A DNA stretch of 64,000 nucleotides, taken from contig NZ_JAHCST010000011.1 of assembly GCF_018476525.1 (NCBI RefSeq), forward strand, positions 1 to 64,000, written 5' to 3'. The position numbers and the translations under genes were made by a program. How positions within the stretch are numbered: position 1 is the first letter of the stretch; the number at the start of each line of letters is the position of its first letter. The DNA is from Acrocarpospora catenulata. Lineage in GTDB: Bacteria > Actinomycetota > Actinomycetes > Streptosporangiales > Streptosporangiaceae. The notes beneath the pieces are model-generated. The model worked only from the letters and a program-made list of their open reading frames with translations. It searched no databases and was not told the DNA's origin. Shown here one piece after another: positions 52,915 to 57,601 of this stretch.

Positions 52915-52924
52915 ATCCTCTTTC

Positions 52925-52937
52925 TGTCAGTTTGACA
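52925..52937. promoter_or_regulatory. NrtR-like operator, TGTCA-3-TGACA
   Basis: TGTCA (52925-52929) and TGACA (52933-52937) inverted around GTT, 19 bp before the Nudix gene start. Known NrtR sites have the same TGTCA-n-TGACA core. Its position just upstream of the -10 box suits autorepression. Confidence 0.55.
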
Positions 52938-52943
52938 AAAAGC

Positions 52944-52949
52944 TAGTCT
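52944..52949 (+). promoter_or_regulatory. -10 box TAGTCT, leaderless start of Nudix gene
   Basis: TAGTCT ends 6 bases before ATG 52956. No ribosome binding site is visible. This is the only promoter seen for the three-gene operon that follows. Confidence 0.5.
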
Positions 52950-52955
52950 CGTCAC

Positions 52956-53684
52956 ATGACCGATGCCCAATGGTCGGCGCCCGCCGTCCTGCTCGCCGTC
53001 GACCTGGTGATTCTGACGTTGCGCGAGTCAAGCCTGCAGGTGCTGCTCGTCGAGCGCGGCGTCGAGCCGTACCGGGGGGCGCTCGCGTTGCCCGGCGGTT
53101 TCCTCCAGCACGCCGAGGAGAACATCGTCGCCGCGGCCCACCGGGAGTTGGCCGAGGAGACCGACATGGACGTCGAGACCCTCGCCCTGGAGCAGGCGGG
53201 GGTCTACGGCGACCCCGGGCGGGATCCGCGGGGCCGGGTCGTGTCCGTGGCCTATCTGGCGATCGCGCCACGGCTGCCGGAGCCGACCGCCGGATCGGAC
53301 GCGTCCGGCGCCGGATGGCAGCCGGTCGATCGCGTGCTTTCCGGAGACCTGGAACTCGCCTTCGACCATCGGCGGATCGTCGCCGACGGCGTCGAGCGCG
53401 CCCGCGTCAAGCTTGAGCATTCCGCGCTCGCGACGGCGTTCTGCGGGCCGACCTTCACGATCACCGACCTGCAGGAGGTGTACGAGGCGGTCTGGGGGAT
53501 CCGGCTGGATCCCCGGAACTTCTACCGCAAGGTCCAGAAAAACGACGGCTTCATCGTCGCGGCCGGTTCGGCGCGCAAGTCCGCGACCGGCCGGCCGGCC
53601 CGGCTGTTCAAGGCGGGCCCGTGCAAAGTCCTGTATCCACCGATGGTCCGGCCCAACGGGCCGTCGTCACCAGAGGAGCAGTAA
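52956..53684 (+). CDS. NrtR-like Nudix-wHTH regulator
   Basis: A 242-residue protein with a Nudix domain (about 8-150) and a C-terminal winged helix (about 165-235; FTITDLQEVYEAVWGIRLDP, NFYRKVQKNDGFI), the NrtR arrangement. NrtR repressors bind ADP-ribose or NAD-related ligands through a Nudix fold that is usually inactive. The Nudix box GGFLQHAEENIVAAAHRELA has one extra residue between Gly and the first Glu (GX6E rather than GX5E), so hydrolysis is doubtful. The NrtR-like operator precedes it. Its TAA is followed immediately by the GTG of the nucleosidase gene (zero gap), so it probably controls a nucleotide-related operon and not NAD biosynthesis genes. Confidence 0.87.
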   Translation: MTDAQWSAPAVLLAVDLVILTLRESSLQVLLVERGVEPYRGALALPGGFLQHAEENIVAAAHRELAEETDMDVETLALEQAGVYGDPGRDPRGRVVSVAYLAIAPRLPEPTAGSDASGAGWQPVDRVLSGDLELAFDHRRIVADGVERARVKLEHSALATAFCGPTFTITDLQEVYEAVWGIRLDPRNFYRKVQKNDGFIVAAGSARKSATGRPARLFKAGPCKVLYPPMVRPNGPSSPEEQ

Positions 53685-54614
53685 GTGAGCCACCGGCCGG
53701 TTGTGATCCTCACGGCATTGGATCTGGAGTACCAAGCGATCCGCGACAAGCTGACCGACCTTCGCCCGCGCCGACACCCGCAGGGCACCCGCTTCGAGAT
53801 CGGCCGACATGCGAACGGCCGGTGCCAGGTGGCGCTGGCCCATGTCGGCAAGGGCAACCACGCCGCGGCGGTGCTGGCCGAACGCGCCATCAACGAGTTC
53901 GCCCCGGCCGCCCTGCTCTTCGTGGGCGTGGCGGGCGCGCTGCACTCGCACATCTCCCTCGGGGACCTCGTGGTGGCGACGCACGTGTACGCCTTCCACG
54001 GCGGGACCAGCGAAGACGACGCGTTCAAGGGCCGTCCGCGCGTCTGGGAAACCGCGCACGCGGCCGACCAGATCGCCCGGCACGTCGACCGCGGCCGCTC
54101 GTGGCTGGGCGGCCTTCCGGACGGCGATCGCAGGCCCCAGGTGTACTTCGGGCCGATCGCCGCCGGCGAGGTGGTCCTGAATTCGCGGATCTCCGCGCAC
54201 GCCCGGTGGCTCAACGAGCACTACAACGACGCGCTGGCGATCGAAATGGAAGGCGCCGGTGTGGCGCAGGCCGGGCACCTGAACCGGTCGCTGCCGGTGG
54301 TCGTGGTCCGGGGCATCAGCGACCGGGCCGACGGCACCAAGCAGGCCACGGACCGCGAGCAGTGGCAGCCGCGAGCCGCGGCCAACGCGGCGGCGTTCGC
54401 GGTCGTCCTGGCCGAAGAGCTGACCGCCGACGAACAGGATGGCGGCCTACCGATGGAAGCAGAGCTGACGAGGAGCCTGACCGTGCACGAGACGACCCGG
54501 AACATCGCGACAGGGAACGCCCGGGTGGGAGTTCAGGCCGGCACCGTACACGGCGACATCCGCATCACCATGGACCCGGCCCCACCGTCAGTTCCCGCCC
54601 AGGAAGAGTCATGA
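53685..54614 (+). CDS. PNP/MTAN-superfamily nucleosidase with C-terminal QAGTVHGDI motif
   Basis: A 309-residue protein. Residues 5-246 match the phosphorylase/nucleosidase superfamily closest to MTA/SAH nucleosidases: VILTALDLEYQAI, LAHVGKGNHAAA, FVGVAGALHSHISLGDLVVA, IEMEGAGVAQ (E187, E189, ribose contacts) and VVVRGISDRADG (D213, catalytic acid). A flexible tail follows, ending in TGNARVGVQAGTVHGDIRIT; the motif VGVQAGTVHGDI (281-292) is repeated almost exactly at the N-terminus of the next protein. Housekeeping MTANs lack this tail. The domain is used as a nucleotide-cleaving effector in some anti-phage systems (for example Detocs DtcC), which makes an immune role plausible but unproven. 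Overlaps the next gene (ATGA). Confidence 0.87.
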   Translation: MSHRPVVILTALDLEYQAIRDKLTDLRPRRHPQGTRFEIGRHANGRCQVALAHVGKGNHAAAVLAERAINEFAPAALLFVGVAGALHSHISLGDLVVATHVYAFHGGTSEDDAFKGRPRVWETAHAADQIARHVDRGRSWLGGLPDGDRRPQVYFGPIAAGEVVLNSRISAHARWLNEHYNDALAIEMEGAGVAQAGHLNRSLPVVVVRGISDRADGTKQATDREQWQPRAAANAAAFAVVLAEELTADEQDGGLPMEAELTRSLTVHETTRNIATGNARVGVQAGTVHGDIRITMDPAPPSVPAQEES

Positions 54615-56602
54615 CGGTCCCGACCAACGTGGCCGGGGATTTCGCGCACGTCGGGATGCAGGCGGGCACCGTCCACGGCGACATCACCGTCTACACGACA
54701 TCTCCGGACGCCTCACCTGAGGAGAAGTTCGAAACGGGCGTCTACTTTCTTGAGGGCGGCATGCCGGGACGGGCCTGGCAGCTTATCCGCGAAGTCGTGG
54801 CGACCGAATACGTCACCAACCGGATGTGCTTCTACTGGCTGCTCGCGCTGACGAGCGGGAGAACGCGGCACGAACTCCCGAAAGAGGATGCCGCACTGCT
54901 GCGGGACAGGCGGCGCGTACTTCGCGTCGTCGGCGATGGCGCCTGGGCGGACGGCGTCAGGATGATCAACCGGCTGCTGGACTGCGCGGAGCAACCCGAC
55001 GCCGACCTGCGCCTCCTCTTCAAGGAGTTCCAGGTGCTGGGCTACACCCAGCGCAGCAGGATTCTCCGCCATCTTGAGCTGTTCCTGGACGGACCGCTCA
55101 AGGACCAGATGTGGCAGCTCGCTCTGACGCGGGCCGAGTCGGAGCGACTGGCCGGTGATCGGGTGGATCGGGTCTGGAAGTTCTTCCAGCCCCAGCCGGC
55201 CGGACCGCGCAGTCGTGAGCCGTTACCTGTCACGATCCCTATGACCACCTGGTTCCAAGCCGTGCCGGCGACGGCCGTCCTGGTCGTGGCGGCGGGCCAC
55301 ATCGGTTCCCTGCTGGCCTGGTACGGCCGACCGACCGCGTTTCTCGCGTACCTCGTGAGCATTGCCGGGGGCTACTTCGGTGTGCGTAGCGGCCTGGAAT
55401 GGCATTTCCGTACGATGCGGCGTCGCGCGAAAGACGGGGACTTCGCGGCTGTCCCCCACAGGACGAGCGCACCGCCGGGCGGTTTCGCCAGGAAAGTAGA
55501 CCAGCGCTTCGACTACTACTTCGCCAAATACGTCCCAGAAGGGATGAGCCGCGATGCGTGGCTGACCCTGACGGCGGGGATCCGCAGACACATGCGCGAC
55601 GAGACGGTCGAGGTCTATCGGGAGAGGAGAACCAGCGCCGAGCAGATCTCCTGGCTGATCCGGTACCGGGCCGCAGACGTCAAACGTCGCTGGTGTAATG
55701 GCACGCTGTGGGAATACCGCCGGGAACTCGCCACCCCTGTCCGCACGAAAGCGGCGGCTGTCGGCGGGATCGCCCTCCTGGCCGGAGGTGGGACCTTGGC
55801 GGCGGGCGGCGCGGTGCTGGTCAGTCCGCTGAGCGGCGTCGGCTCGATTTTCGTCGCGCTGGCAGGCGGGTGGATCGCCGCACGCGCCTGGCTGCACATC
55901 GCCCTGGAGCGCCGCCGGTACGCGGCCGACAGGTCCGAGGCCGAACAGGACAAGGCTGAGATCACGGCGGCCTTCGCGGATTGGCAGGCGACTCTGGCCG
56001 ACAGACCCGACGACCGGGAAATGGCCGCCTGGCTGGACTGTGACAGAAAGGTCCTGCTGAACGAGGCGTTGCGGCACTACAGGCTGAGCATGAGCGACGT
56101 CATCTCGCACGCGTTCATCGAAGCGCCGGCTCCGTCGACCGCACGCGCACGCGTCCGGGGCGGTCCTTGGCGCTATACGAGGTATCAGCTTCTCCTCTTC
56201 GTCCTCACCGCAGACGGGGTACGTCAGATCACCGTCAGCCTCGATTTCCGGCAGGGCACATTCCATGACCGGAAGCGGGCGAACTACCGCTTCGAGAAGA
56301 TCGCCGCCGTACGCGTCAACCAGGCGGACAACCATGAGCAGACCTTCGAACTCGCGCTGGTCAACGGGACTGAGATCCGGGTTCAGGTGATGGCTCCGGA
56401 AATGGAGGAACTCCAGCAAGGAGAGAACTCAGGAGAGGTGTCCGAGGTGACGTTGGACGCCGCGGGTCTGCACCACACACTGCACGTTCTGGAAGGGATC
56501 GCCGCGGAAGGAAGCGCGTGGCTTGCGCAGGAACACCGACGCGGACAGGACCGCATGAACGGACAGAGCCGTATGACCAACAGGCGGGACCGGATGCCCT
56601 GA
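54611..56602 (+). CDS. Four-helix membrane protein with VGMQAGTVHGDI motif, unknown
   Basis: A 663-residue protein with no recognised family. Residues 14-25 (VGMQAGTVHGDI) copy the tail motif of the nucleosidase. A helical domain follows (SPEEKFETGVYFLEGGMPGR, FYWLLALTSGRTRHELPKED, RILRHLELFLDG), then a membrane hairpin (about 216-236 and 241-258), a basic cytoplasmic segment (FRTMRRRAKD; DETVEVYRERRTSAEQISWL), a second, Gly-rich hairpin (about 381-404 and 409-430) and a soluble C-terminal domain (RYTRYQLLLFVLTADGVRQI, FEKIAAVRVNQADNHEQTFE) rich in beta strands. No signal peptide. A membrane-perturbing or membrane-anchoring partner for the nucleosidase is a reasonable inference. ATG 54611 overlaps the preceding stop. 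Confidence 0.78.
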   Translation: MTVPTNVAGDFAHVGMQAGTVHGDITVYTTSPDASPEEKFETGVYFLEGGMPGRAWQLIREVVATEYVTNRMCFYWLLALTSGRTRHELPKEDAALLRDRRRVLRVVGDGAWADGVRMINRLLDCAEQPDADLRLLFKEFQVLGYTQRSRILRHLELFLDGPLKDQMWQLALTRAESERLAGDRVDRVWKFFQPQPAGPRSREPLPVTIPMTTWFQAVPATAVLVVAAGHIGSLLAWYGRPTAFLAYLVSIAGGYFGVRSGLEWHFRTMRRRAKDGDFAAVPHRTSAPPGGFARKVDQRFDYYFAKYVPEGMSRDAWLTLTAGIRRHMRDETVEVYRERRTSAEQISWLIRYRAADVKRRWCNGTLWEYRRELATPVRTKAAAVGGIALLAGGGTLAAGGAVLVSPLSGVGSIFVALAGGWIAARAWLHIALERRRYAADRSEAEQDKAEITAAFADWQATLADRPDDREMAAWLDCDRKVLLNEALRHYRLSMSDVISHAFIEAPAPSTARARVRGGPWRYTRYQLLLFVLTADGVRQITVSLDFRQGTFHDRKRANYRFEKIAAVRVNQADNHEQTFELALVNGTEIRVQVMAPEMEELQQGENSGEVSEVTLDAAGLHHTLHVLEGIAAEGSAWLAQEHRRGQDRMNGQSRMTNRRDRMP

Positions 56603-56707
56603 CGTTCACGGGAGAGGCGGATACAGCGCGAAAGATTGCGGGGCAAGATGCGGCGCAACATCGCTAGCATCGGGGTGCGAGCTGATCCGCGAGCTGTGAG
56701 GCGGTCG

Positions 56708-57601
56708 ATGGTGGCCGGCTATGACACCCCGTCCGTGCGGGAGCGCAACCTGGCGAAGGAATTACGGACGCTTCGCCGGGCGGCTCAGTTGCAGGGGAAA
56801 GATGTGGCCGGGCGGCTGGGGTGGTCGGCTTCCAAGGTGTCGCGGATCGAGAACGGGCGGATCGGGATCGGGGTGGAGGATCTCGAACTGCTTATTGCGT
56901 TGTATGCCGTGCCGTACGAACGTGCCACGTTTCTGCGGCGGCTGGCCGACTCGATCAGGGCCAAGGGGTGGTGGGACGCCTACCGCGAGACGCTCAATCC
57001 GGGGTACGGCAGTCTGATCAAGCTGGAGGCGGGCTCGTCGGCGCTGCGCTCCTACTGCGTGCTGGTGCCGCACGCGTTGCTGATGACGCGGGATTTCGCG
57101 CGCCAGATCATTCTGCTGGCGCCGCAGAGTCCGTCCGCGTCGGAGCTGGAGCACCGGCTGGAGGTGGTGCGCCGCCGTCAGGAGGTGCTCCAGGCGCGCG
57201 GCGACCGGGAGCCGCTCCAGCTGTCGGTGATTCTTGATGAGTCGTTCCTGCACCGGCGGGTGGTGAGCCCCGAAGGTGACGAGGCGGGCCGGGCGCTCAT
57301 GCGACAGCAGCTGGAACGCCTGCTGGCCGACGCGGAGCGGCCCAACGTGACGCTGCGGCTGCTGCCGCTGACGGTGGGGCTGCCGCCGGTGACCGTGGGG
57401 TCGTTCTCGATCCTCGGATCCACCGCCACCGGCTCCCCGGATGTGGTTTACATGGAGAACAAGTCGCGCATCTTCTTCATCGACGCGGAGAGTGAGGTCA
57501 ACAGTTACGTGCAGGACTTCGAGCTGATCGCGTCGTGGGCGCTGACCCCGGCCGCCTCCGCCGATAGGATCCGGCGCCGCGTCGCCGACCTGGACAGTTG
57601 A
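56708..57601 (+). CDS. XRE-family regulator with DUF5753
   Basis: A 297-residue actinobacterial regulator: HTH (LRTLRRAAQLQGKDVAGRLG, WSASKVSRIENGRIG) and a DUF5753 domain (LLMTRDFARQIILLA, RRQEVLQARGDREPLQLSVI, VTLRLLPLTVG, VYMENKS). BldB/WhiJ-type systems use such proteins with small partner proteins, but no DUF397 gene is adjacent. ATG 56708 has GAGG at 6 bases; GTG 56675 is an alternative in frame. Stop is 2 bp before the AKR start, so the two are co-transcribed. Confidence 0.9.
   Translation: MVAGYDTPSVRERNLAKELRTLRRAAQLQGKDVAGRLGWSASKVSRIENGRIGIGVEDLELLIALYAVPYERATFLRRLADSIRAKGWWDAYRETLNPGYGSLIKLEAGSSALRSYCVLVPHALLMTRDFARQIILLAPQSPSASELEHRLEVVRRRQEVLQARGDREPLQLSVILDESFLHRRVVSPEGDEAGRALMRQQLERLLADAERPNVTLRLLPLTVGLPPVTVGSFSILGSTATGSPDVVYMENKSRIFFIDAESEVNSYVQDFELIASWALTPAASADRIRRRVADLDS

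Follow-up and report, generated by a model that had tools for sequence, protein, structure and literature searches.

What is the function of a short operon that places an NrtR-like regulator, a nucleosidase and a large membrane protein of no recognized family under one promoter? The operon is found in Acrocarpospora catenulata, on the + strand of a 64,000-nucleotide stretch (contig NZ_JAHCST010000011.1, positions 1 to 64,000) that will be called the window, and its three genes are named here A, B and C in their order. Our answer rests on a motif of about 22 residues with a RHIM-like core, common to the C-terminal tail of B and the N-terminus of C. We propose that the operon may encode an amyloid-motif signalosome of the RHIM/BASS3 type that operates without an NLR, with C as the receptor in the slot of the NLR and B as the effector, and we give this reading a probability of roughly 0.47. 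The genes and motifs involved are the following:

52956..53684, + strand: gene A, NrtR-like regulator with NUDIX and winged helix domains, 242 amino acids (Pfam NUDIX and NrtR_WHD).
53685..54614, + strand: gene B, PNP_UDP_1/MTAN-like nucleosidase with a motif-bearing tail, 309 amino acids (Pfam PNP_UDP_1, 7.4e-33; invariant E15, E187, E189 and D213).
54611..56602, + strand: gene C, membrane protein with an N-terminal motif, 663 amino acids (AlphaFold2 model; no Walker A).
54495..54578, + strand: motif of B, residues 271-298, RHIM-like core GVQAG (profile match 3.7e-15, the window motifs being included in that profile).
54620..54703, + strand: motif of C, residues 4-31, core GMQAG (B/C alignment, motif profile and conservation of the core Q).

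When the B and C proteins were compared with each other, a single significant alignment was obtained, between residues 273-307 of B and 6-39 of C (46% identity over 35 amino acids, E 3e-5); all other segments lay above E 2. The motif reads NARVGVQAGTVHGDI / FAHVGMQAGTVHGDI, and both proteins of the window hold N-x-A-x-x-x-A-x-V-G-(V/M)-Q-A-G-T-V-H-G-D-I. The products of two adjacent genes thus have a short motif in common, at the C-terminus of B and at the N-terminus of C. An earlier note on this DNA had described the tail of B as non-housekeeping, a description that fits a tail carrying the motif found in C.

Occurrence of the motif was examined in 67 regions around C homologues, fetched after a search of the family, which together with the window make 68 places; short C fragments (G106, G245, G073, G223 and G065) were left out of the set. 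A hidden Markov model (HMM) was built from the motifs of C alone, omitting seven C proteins that are partial or doubtful, and was run on the 15,544 stop-to-stop open reading frames (ORFs) of at least 40 amino acids present in 78 loci. Of the 131 domain matches obtained, those in the first 68 places fell in 61 of 68 C proteins and 51 of 58 B proteins, plus a frame-shifted B (L086), a TIR partner of C (L095) and three small motif proteins (L092, L093 and L103); the remaining 14, in ten further loci, were all in C or B. Seven B proteins escaped the HMM: the motif is readable in five (L073, L078, L084, L087 and L088), and L086 and L091 are broken. With 131 matches in 15,544 ORFs and none of them foreign, chance was rejected as the origin of the motif. 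In the genome of A. catenulata itself, a motif-only profile at E 0.01 matched B and C, and nothing else. Matches were also detected in ORFs of about 100 amino acids away from the operon (e.g., G110:C8:193842-193919 and G037:C14:78116-78184), which are possible further small motif proteins.

The core of the motif has a central glutamine. In C it is invariant in 17 of 17 sequences and present in at least 90% of 59 C proteins. In B it is invariant in alignment A4, which holds 43 of the 54 usable proteins, and is replaced by M in L081, a protein outside that alignment. The cores seen are GVQAG, GMQAG and GAQIG, with Q in all 28 chosen rows of alignment A3 and Ala replacing I/V at the fourth place. 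Within B the motif forms an island of conservation: the fraction of the commonest residue is 0.64 in the motif, compared with 0.35 before it and 0.44 after it (43 sequences).

The three genes are tightly associated. Both A and B lie beside C in 57 of the 68 places, and another (L099) holds B and C at the start of a contig; in the remaining ten, A and B are absent. An orthologue of B (at least 290 bits, where the list shows a gap that served as cut-off) was found in 57 of 250 family genomes, 56 of which have C downstream, 0.5-1 kb away from B in three cases. The co-occurrence that the earlier note proposed to test is thus borne out. The condition that the note set for refutation, homologues of the nucleosidase that occur without the other two genes and act as ordinary MTA/SAH nucleosidases, mostly goes unsupported, as an orthologue of B without C downstream was found in one genome, G002. 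At that locus (L179, G002:C51), which belongs to the genus of the window, A is followed by a B with motif and helical region and by no C downstream, in the manner of an orphan effector side. The gene coordinates of the window confirm the described layout: the GTG start of B directly abuts the TAA of A, and the stop of B overlaps the start of C in an ATGA. Using extrapolated gene ends, 50 of 57 operons have an A-to-B gap within 11 nucleotides, and between B and C the gap stays inside this limit in 47 of 57. Matches to C were found in 18 of 246 genomes of the class search (7 of them in the family of the window, 3 with fragments only) and in 2 of 198 genomes of the phylum search, namely its own genome and one fragment. 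Thirteen of the 35 genomes of family f69 have a C match, nine of them a long one, and one f3 genome also has a long match. Eight of ten regions fetched beyond the family show NrtR-like, PNP and C genes, as read from ORF lists and matches. The six named loci belong to Microtetraspora, Sphaerisporangium and Streptosporangium.

The ten places that lack A and B are informative about the partners of C. The upstream neighbour of C is a TIR protein in three, a BTAD protein in two, a small motif protein in one (L103), and no clear partner exists in four. The TIR_2 proteins lie directly upstream of C (L095, 4.5e-11; L096, 1.2e-8; L100, 5.5e-12), with an HTH regulator upstream in place of A (by Pfam in L095, by reading in L096 and L100). 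One BTAD protein was identified by scanning (L097) and the other by reading (L098). The C-terminal motifs of these partners resemble the motif of their own C, as in AQIGVQGTVMGNV and ATIGVQGTVIGDV of L095. When partner motifs were ranked against 63 C motifs, the own C came second for the TIR protein of L095 and first for those of L100 and L096, first for BTAD, second for the small proteins of both L092 and L093, and first for the PNP proteins of L130 and L099. These small proteins, made of the motif and a helical region like the C-terminal domain of B, lie directly upstream of C (L092:8795-9211 and L093:8265-8654, - strand; L103:1587-1976, - strand); they are possible adaptors.

Within the main clade, the motifs of B and C from the same operon are more alike than other pairs (0.42 vs 0.36; n = 54, with L086 dropped beforehand as its B is frame-shifted; 0 of 20,000 permutations). 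Crossed controls gave r -0.30 and 0.003. Most of this similarity, however, follows phylogeny, and strict co-evolution is only weakly supported. The argument therefore rests more on finding the motif again in partners of different fold than on fine co-evolution.

Comparison with known systems supports the assignment of roles (articles given by PMC number are cited for parts of their text). In described pairs, the effector carries its motif at the C-terminus and the NLR at the N-terminus, and the genes are adjacent or overlapping (PMC7889193); since B is an enzyme with a C-terminal motif and C a partner with an N-terminal one, gene order suggests that B is the effector and that C stands in the NLR slot. 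A core of the form G-(I,V)-Q-(I,V)-G marks the RHIM/PP class (PMC7885112). Pairs of BASS3 or RHIM-like type resemble B and C in having adjacent, often overlapping genes and the same motif positions, and a similar motif heads NB-ARC proteins in the bacterial family of the window. Unlike in BASS3 pairs, C is no NLR, lacks Walker A in 59 of 59 proteins, and has membrane helices and a PH-like domain; the effector side is PNP, TIR or BTAD instead of Bell, and most B proteins carry a further domain after the motif. In fungi, PNP_UDP effectors are wired by an amyloid motif, and motif peptides have been shown to aggregate (PMC9815663). The fungal PUASM arrangement is like the operon in that a PNP_UDP enzyme with a C-terminal amyloid motif is encoded beside a gene with a matching N-terminal motif; there, however, a NACHT NLR is paired with the enzyme and the motif is FxGxGxQxxGxGxF, while here the partner is C and the core GVQAG (PMC9815663). 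RHIM-like motifs outside NLRs, as in the operon, occur in PGRP-LC and Imd of Drosophila (PMC7885112), whose proteins and outputs are unrelated to those of the operon. Neither this operon nor any bacterial pair free of NLRs was found described in the open-licence literature, as far as its texts were covered; a 2020 J Mol Biol survey, outside that scope, may list some of the motifs. Two articles (PMC7159879 and PMC8195603) treat PNPase effectors, and neither the motif nor the operon appears in the parts covered.

The link with NLR-like proteins is visible also in related genomes. Motif-only profile matches were found in 41 of 120 family genomes, and seven loci among the many weak matches, all outside the operon, were inspected. 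In two of them (L165 and L169) scanning detected the motif followed by an NB-ARC domain, and a third (L167) looks alike by reading; L157 corresponds to the B of G002, the protein that bears the motif in L163 has no Pfam match, and L161 and L168 show nothing clear. In parallel, ten PNP relatives of B outside the operon were fetched (L170-L178 and L180; 43-58% identity). Four are fused to an NTPase: NB-ARC-TPR in L170, nSTAND1 with beta-propeller-like repeats in L171, a similar arrangement, as read, in L172, and another STAND-type NTPase in L175. The PNP of L178 runs into an NTPase at the end of its contig, and five are unfused. In L171:5082-10182 and L172:2534-7696, a NrtR-like gene precedes the PNP-STAND fusion of approximately 1450 amino acids with its beta-propeller-like repeats, so that the NrtR-PNP unit appears either fused to a NLR-like protein or joined by the motif to C. 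These fusions favour the nucleotide-directed conflict role proposed from the start, with defence as its presumptive purpose.

An alternative is that the motif is a docking tag of non-amyloid nature, in which case pairing of beta strands would join B and C (or TIR and C) into a stable membrane-bound enzyme complex and no assembly would be templated. A motif of about 22 residues with alternating hydrophobics could indeed pair as strands, the AlphaFold2 monomer models of B and C show low confidence or disorder at the motif, and the core Q is missing in some partners. On the other hand, the core, the flanking N and G, the motif positions and the copies that head NB-ARC proteins largely match the amyloid-motif class, and we find a simple docking tag improbable.

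The reading of C as a receptor depends on what kind of protein C is. No Pfam family over cut-off and no NCBIfam match was found in it, and no sequence relative in the PDB at E 1, in keeping with its first description as an unrecognized membrane protein. The AlphaFold2 model (m8034df42b981, built with 59 sequences; pLDDT 87.1, pTM 0.81) shows a disordered N-terminus (residues 1-18), a helical region, two long helix pairs that include hydrophobic segments, and a PH-like beta domain:

54716..55183, + strand: helical, perhaps TPR-like region of C, residues 36-191 (model; best Foldseek match Tom70, E 8e-3, weak).
55241..55441, + strand: first long helix pair, residues 211-277 (model; hydropathy peak at 217-235 only).
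55739..55993, + strand: second long helix pair, residues 377-461 (model; hydropathy peaks 386-431).
56099..56392, + strand: PH-like beta domain, residues 497-594 (Foldseek).

The description of C as a four-helix protein is roughly right, as the model has two helix pairs, but hydropathy segments vary among the 59 C proteins (4 in 29, 3 in 20, 2 in 7 and 5 in 3), and in the C of the window the second helix of the first pair has no hydropathy peak. Comparison of the model with solved structures by Foldseek gave nothing at E 0.001, just PH-like domains and weak helical matches; the best for the PH-like domain were 3u12_A, a PH domain (probability 1.00, TMt 0.60, E 0.09), and 3dcx (probability 0.77-0.96). 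C has no Pfam match to an NTPase, and no NTPase appears among the 50 Foldseek matches listed with whole-chain fit. Two candidate identities were hence rejected: a hidden NLR, for want of Walker A and of any NTPase match, and a known membrane effector, for want of matches in Pfam (over cut-off), NCBIfam, PDB sequences or Foldseek (E 0.001).

That C is a multi-helix membrane protein, and that it stays constant while the enzyme varies, raises the main rival explanation, in which the direction is reversed: B (or TIR) would sense or make a nucleotide signal, and the motif would recruit or seed C, which would open a membrane pore, as proposed for SLATT and HeLo/Bell proteins. Nucleotide enzymes near pore-forming SLATT proteins have in fact been proposed in conflict systems (PMC7159879). 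The SLATT domain was not found in C by a Pfam search at E 1, however, and with its own helical and PH-like domains C is long, unlike the short Bell or SLATT proteins. Its motif is N-terminal, as is that of the receptor in known pairs, and PNP relatives that are fused to STAND proteins occupy the N-terminus of these, the position of effector domains. We view this reversed direction as rather unlikely.

As an effector, B has the features of an active enzyme. The residues E15, E187, E189 and D213 show no variation among the 55 aligned B proteins, that of the window included (L091, L092 and L099 were excluded from the alignment), and the catalytic residues reported as intact in the earlier note (E187, E189 and D213) are among them. 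The catalytic residues of MTAN, E12, E174 and D197, have E15, E187/E189 and D213 as their counterparts. The model of a B homologue (L039) matches MTAN structures in Foldseek (E 1.7e-19). B lies under the equivalog cut-offs for MTAN and futalosine hydrolase (104.4 of 169 and 54.6 of 73.8 bits), and it matches the PADLOC profile 'Effector, PN-superfamily' at 8.8e-19. The genome encodes a separate methylthioadenosine (MTA) phosphorylase (451 bits against a cut-off of 306), so that a housekeeping function is not required of B; as its scores also lie under the equivalog cut-offs, we do not take housekeeping MTAN to be its probable role. In several defence systems, effectors with a PF01048 domain degrade (d)ATP (PMC10952713), and by this analogy nucleotide depletion would be the likeliest output of B. 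Such a domain as likely nucleotide-cleaving effector is what B has in common with Detocs and Cap17-type systems (PMC10952713); unlike in these, ATP cleavage by B is putative, and B has no match to TPALS (PF18178), with PNP_UDP_1 as its sole Pfam domain. The operon was hence rejected as a Detocs system. In 53 of 58 B proteins read, the length is 373-392 amino acids and a domain follows the motif, a four-helix bundle in the L039 model; the 309-residue B of the window lacks this C-terminal region.

Two further PNP proteins deserve mention. A second PNP_UDP protein in the A. catenulata genome (L186:1288-2160, G000:C160; 2.2e-17) has a different motif-like stretch, NSGIINQGGSMIINGTAIGDGA, at its start, before the enzyme domain, possibly another amyloid-type motif family. 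In L173:5528-7991, a PNP protein is shortly followed by a 230-amino acid protein that is weakly holin-like (E 0.043), a possible further PNP-membrane pair.

The regulator belongs, as first suggested, to the NrtR-like proteins: A shows the domain pair of the family, with Pfam NUDIX at 1.9e-15 and NrtR_WHD at 2.1e-14, and with 120.6 bits it falls short of the 400 bits required for the NCBIfam NtrR equivalog. Upstream of A, two elements were found:

52920..52942, + strand: palindromic operator CTTTCTGTCA-N3-TGACAAAAAG, predicted and presumably bound by A (unique in the genome; conserved upstream of A).
52944..52949, + strand: -10-like hexamer TAGTCT, 6 nucleotides 5' of the ATG (read from the sequence; leaderless start presumed).

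In the window, the spacer of the operator is GTT (CTTTCTGTCA-GTT-TGACAAAAAG). The pattern TGTC-N5-GACA is found upstream of A in 51 of 57 operons, with 56 matches across all 1.07 Mb of those loci, and when up to 3 mismatches were allowed the palindrome was detected at one site only of the A. catenulata genome, before A. The palindrome reported earlier is thereby confirmed. The leaderless promoter also reported fits the position of TAGTCT, the leaderless start itself being presumptive; comparable TA-rich hexamers are visible (uncounted) at a -10-like position in many aligned upstream regions. Conservation of the operator upstream of A, together with its uniqueness in the genome, suggests that A is a regulator dedicated to its own operon. 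Like ADP-ribose-responsive NrtR repressors, A combines NUDIX and NrtR_WHD domains with a palindromic operator; unlike them, its sole genomic site of the pattern lies before its own operon, and its score is under the NtrR cut-off. Just 3' of the operon, at 56636-57601 of the window, lies an HTH_31/DUF5753 regulator that is nearby in 1 of 67 other loci.

Regulators of the NrtR family act on NAD metabolism, and B is closest to MTAN. Both facts would suit a metabolic operon without immune function, in which C would hold a nucleoside salvage enzyme at the membrane and an ADP-ribose-responsive repressor would keep that enzyme under control. The distribution speaks otherwise: any C match was found in 71 of 250 family genomes, a patchy pattern; flanks are not conserved, with neighbours of the window recurring in at most 2 of 67 loci; and decayed copies of the operon exist (L091 and L181). 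In addition, TIR can replace B, the genome has its own MTA phosphorylase, and the operator occurs once. Of the explanations considered, a metabolic operon seems to us very unlikely.

In the mechanism that we infer for the NLR-free signalosome, amyloid nature, direction of signalling, trigger, substrate and defence role included, C would be a membrane-anchored receptor whose helical and PH-like parts sense a disturbance, perhaps phage entry or membrane damage. Its exposed N-terminal motif would then nucleate an ordered, probably cross-beta assembly, onto which the C-terminal motif of B would be templated, clustering the nucleosidase domains. Clustering would switch on cleavage of adenine nucleotides or nucleosides, leading to depletion and growth arrest or death. 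A would repress the operon at its one dedicated operator and, judging from the NrtR family, probably release it when ADP-ribose or a related nucleotide rises. A bolder proposal, which we regard as tentative and rather doubtful, makes C the founder of a class of bacterial receptors that are embedded in the membrane, have no NTPase and drive templated assembly of RHIM type. The PNP, TIR or transcription-factor outputs would be interchangeable, expression would be released by a nucleotide-damage signal through the NrtR-like repressor, and the whole would amount to immunity by amyloid motifs in the absence of NLRs.

Several observations weigh against a RHIM-type signalosome with C as receptor. The core is mostly G-V-Q-A-G rather than G-(I/V)-Q-(I/V)-G, and the C motif is no more conserved than the rest of C (0.60, compared with 0.59 in the PH-like part). 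The core Q is replaced by E in the TIR partner of L096 and by V in that of L100. It is also lost from both proteins of L081:6631-9755 (GVMAG in B, GVLAD in C), a double loss that may be a matched change or decay. Because of these three loci, we lowered our confidence from 0.5. The preference for the own C fails for L103 (rank 39 of 63) and L131 (20 of 63); in the main clade, just 13 B motifs of 54 have the own C among their best five, the median rank being 13.5, and a partial Mantel test gave r 0.118 (p 0.035) vs a nearly as strong r 0.072 (p 0.060) for control segments. No motif partner is present at L055, L079, L101 and L102, where C is truncated or lacks the motif, which counts against universality; G002 keeps B without C; and C may be a pore in its own right, with signalling then running the other way. 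Altogether, the interpretation offered in the earlier note is supported in part: co-occurrence, regulator family and active site held, while the B/C motif, the TIR and BTAD partners and the place of C in the NLR slot had been missed.

PGRP-LC, the Drosophila protein compared above, is a membrane receptor. A 2021 commentary asks whether signalling amyloids independent of NLRs exist in fungi and bacteria, and points out that motif searches are biased to NLR pairs (PMC7889193). The operon is a concrete candidate answer to that question, a non-NLR pair with a RHIM-like motif, and it offers a measurable enzymatic output, swappable partners (PNP, TIR and BTAD) and a dedicated regulator. If the proposal is true, the PNP and TIR effectors that serve immunity in bacteria and fungi would be tied to a membrane receptor; the presence of a shared tag without an NLR receptor suggests a simpler, undescribed form of bacterial self-destruct or defence signalling.

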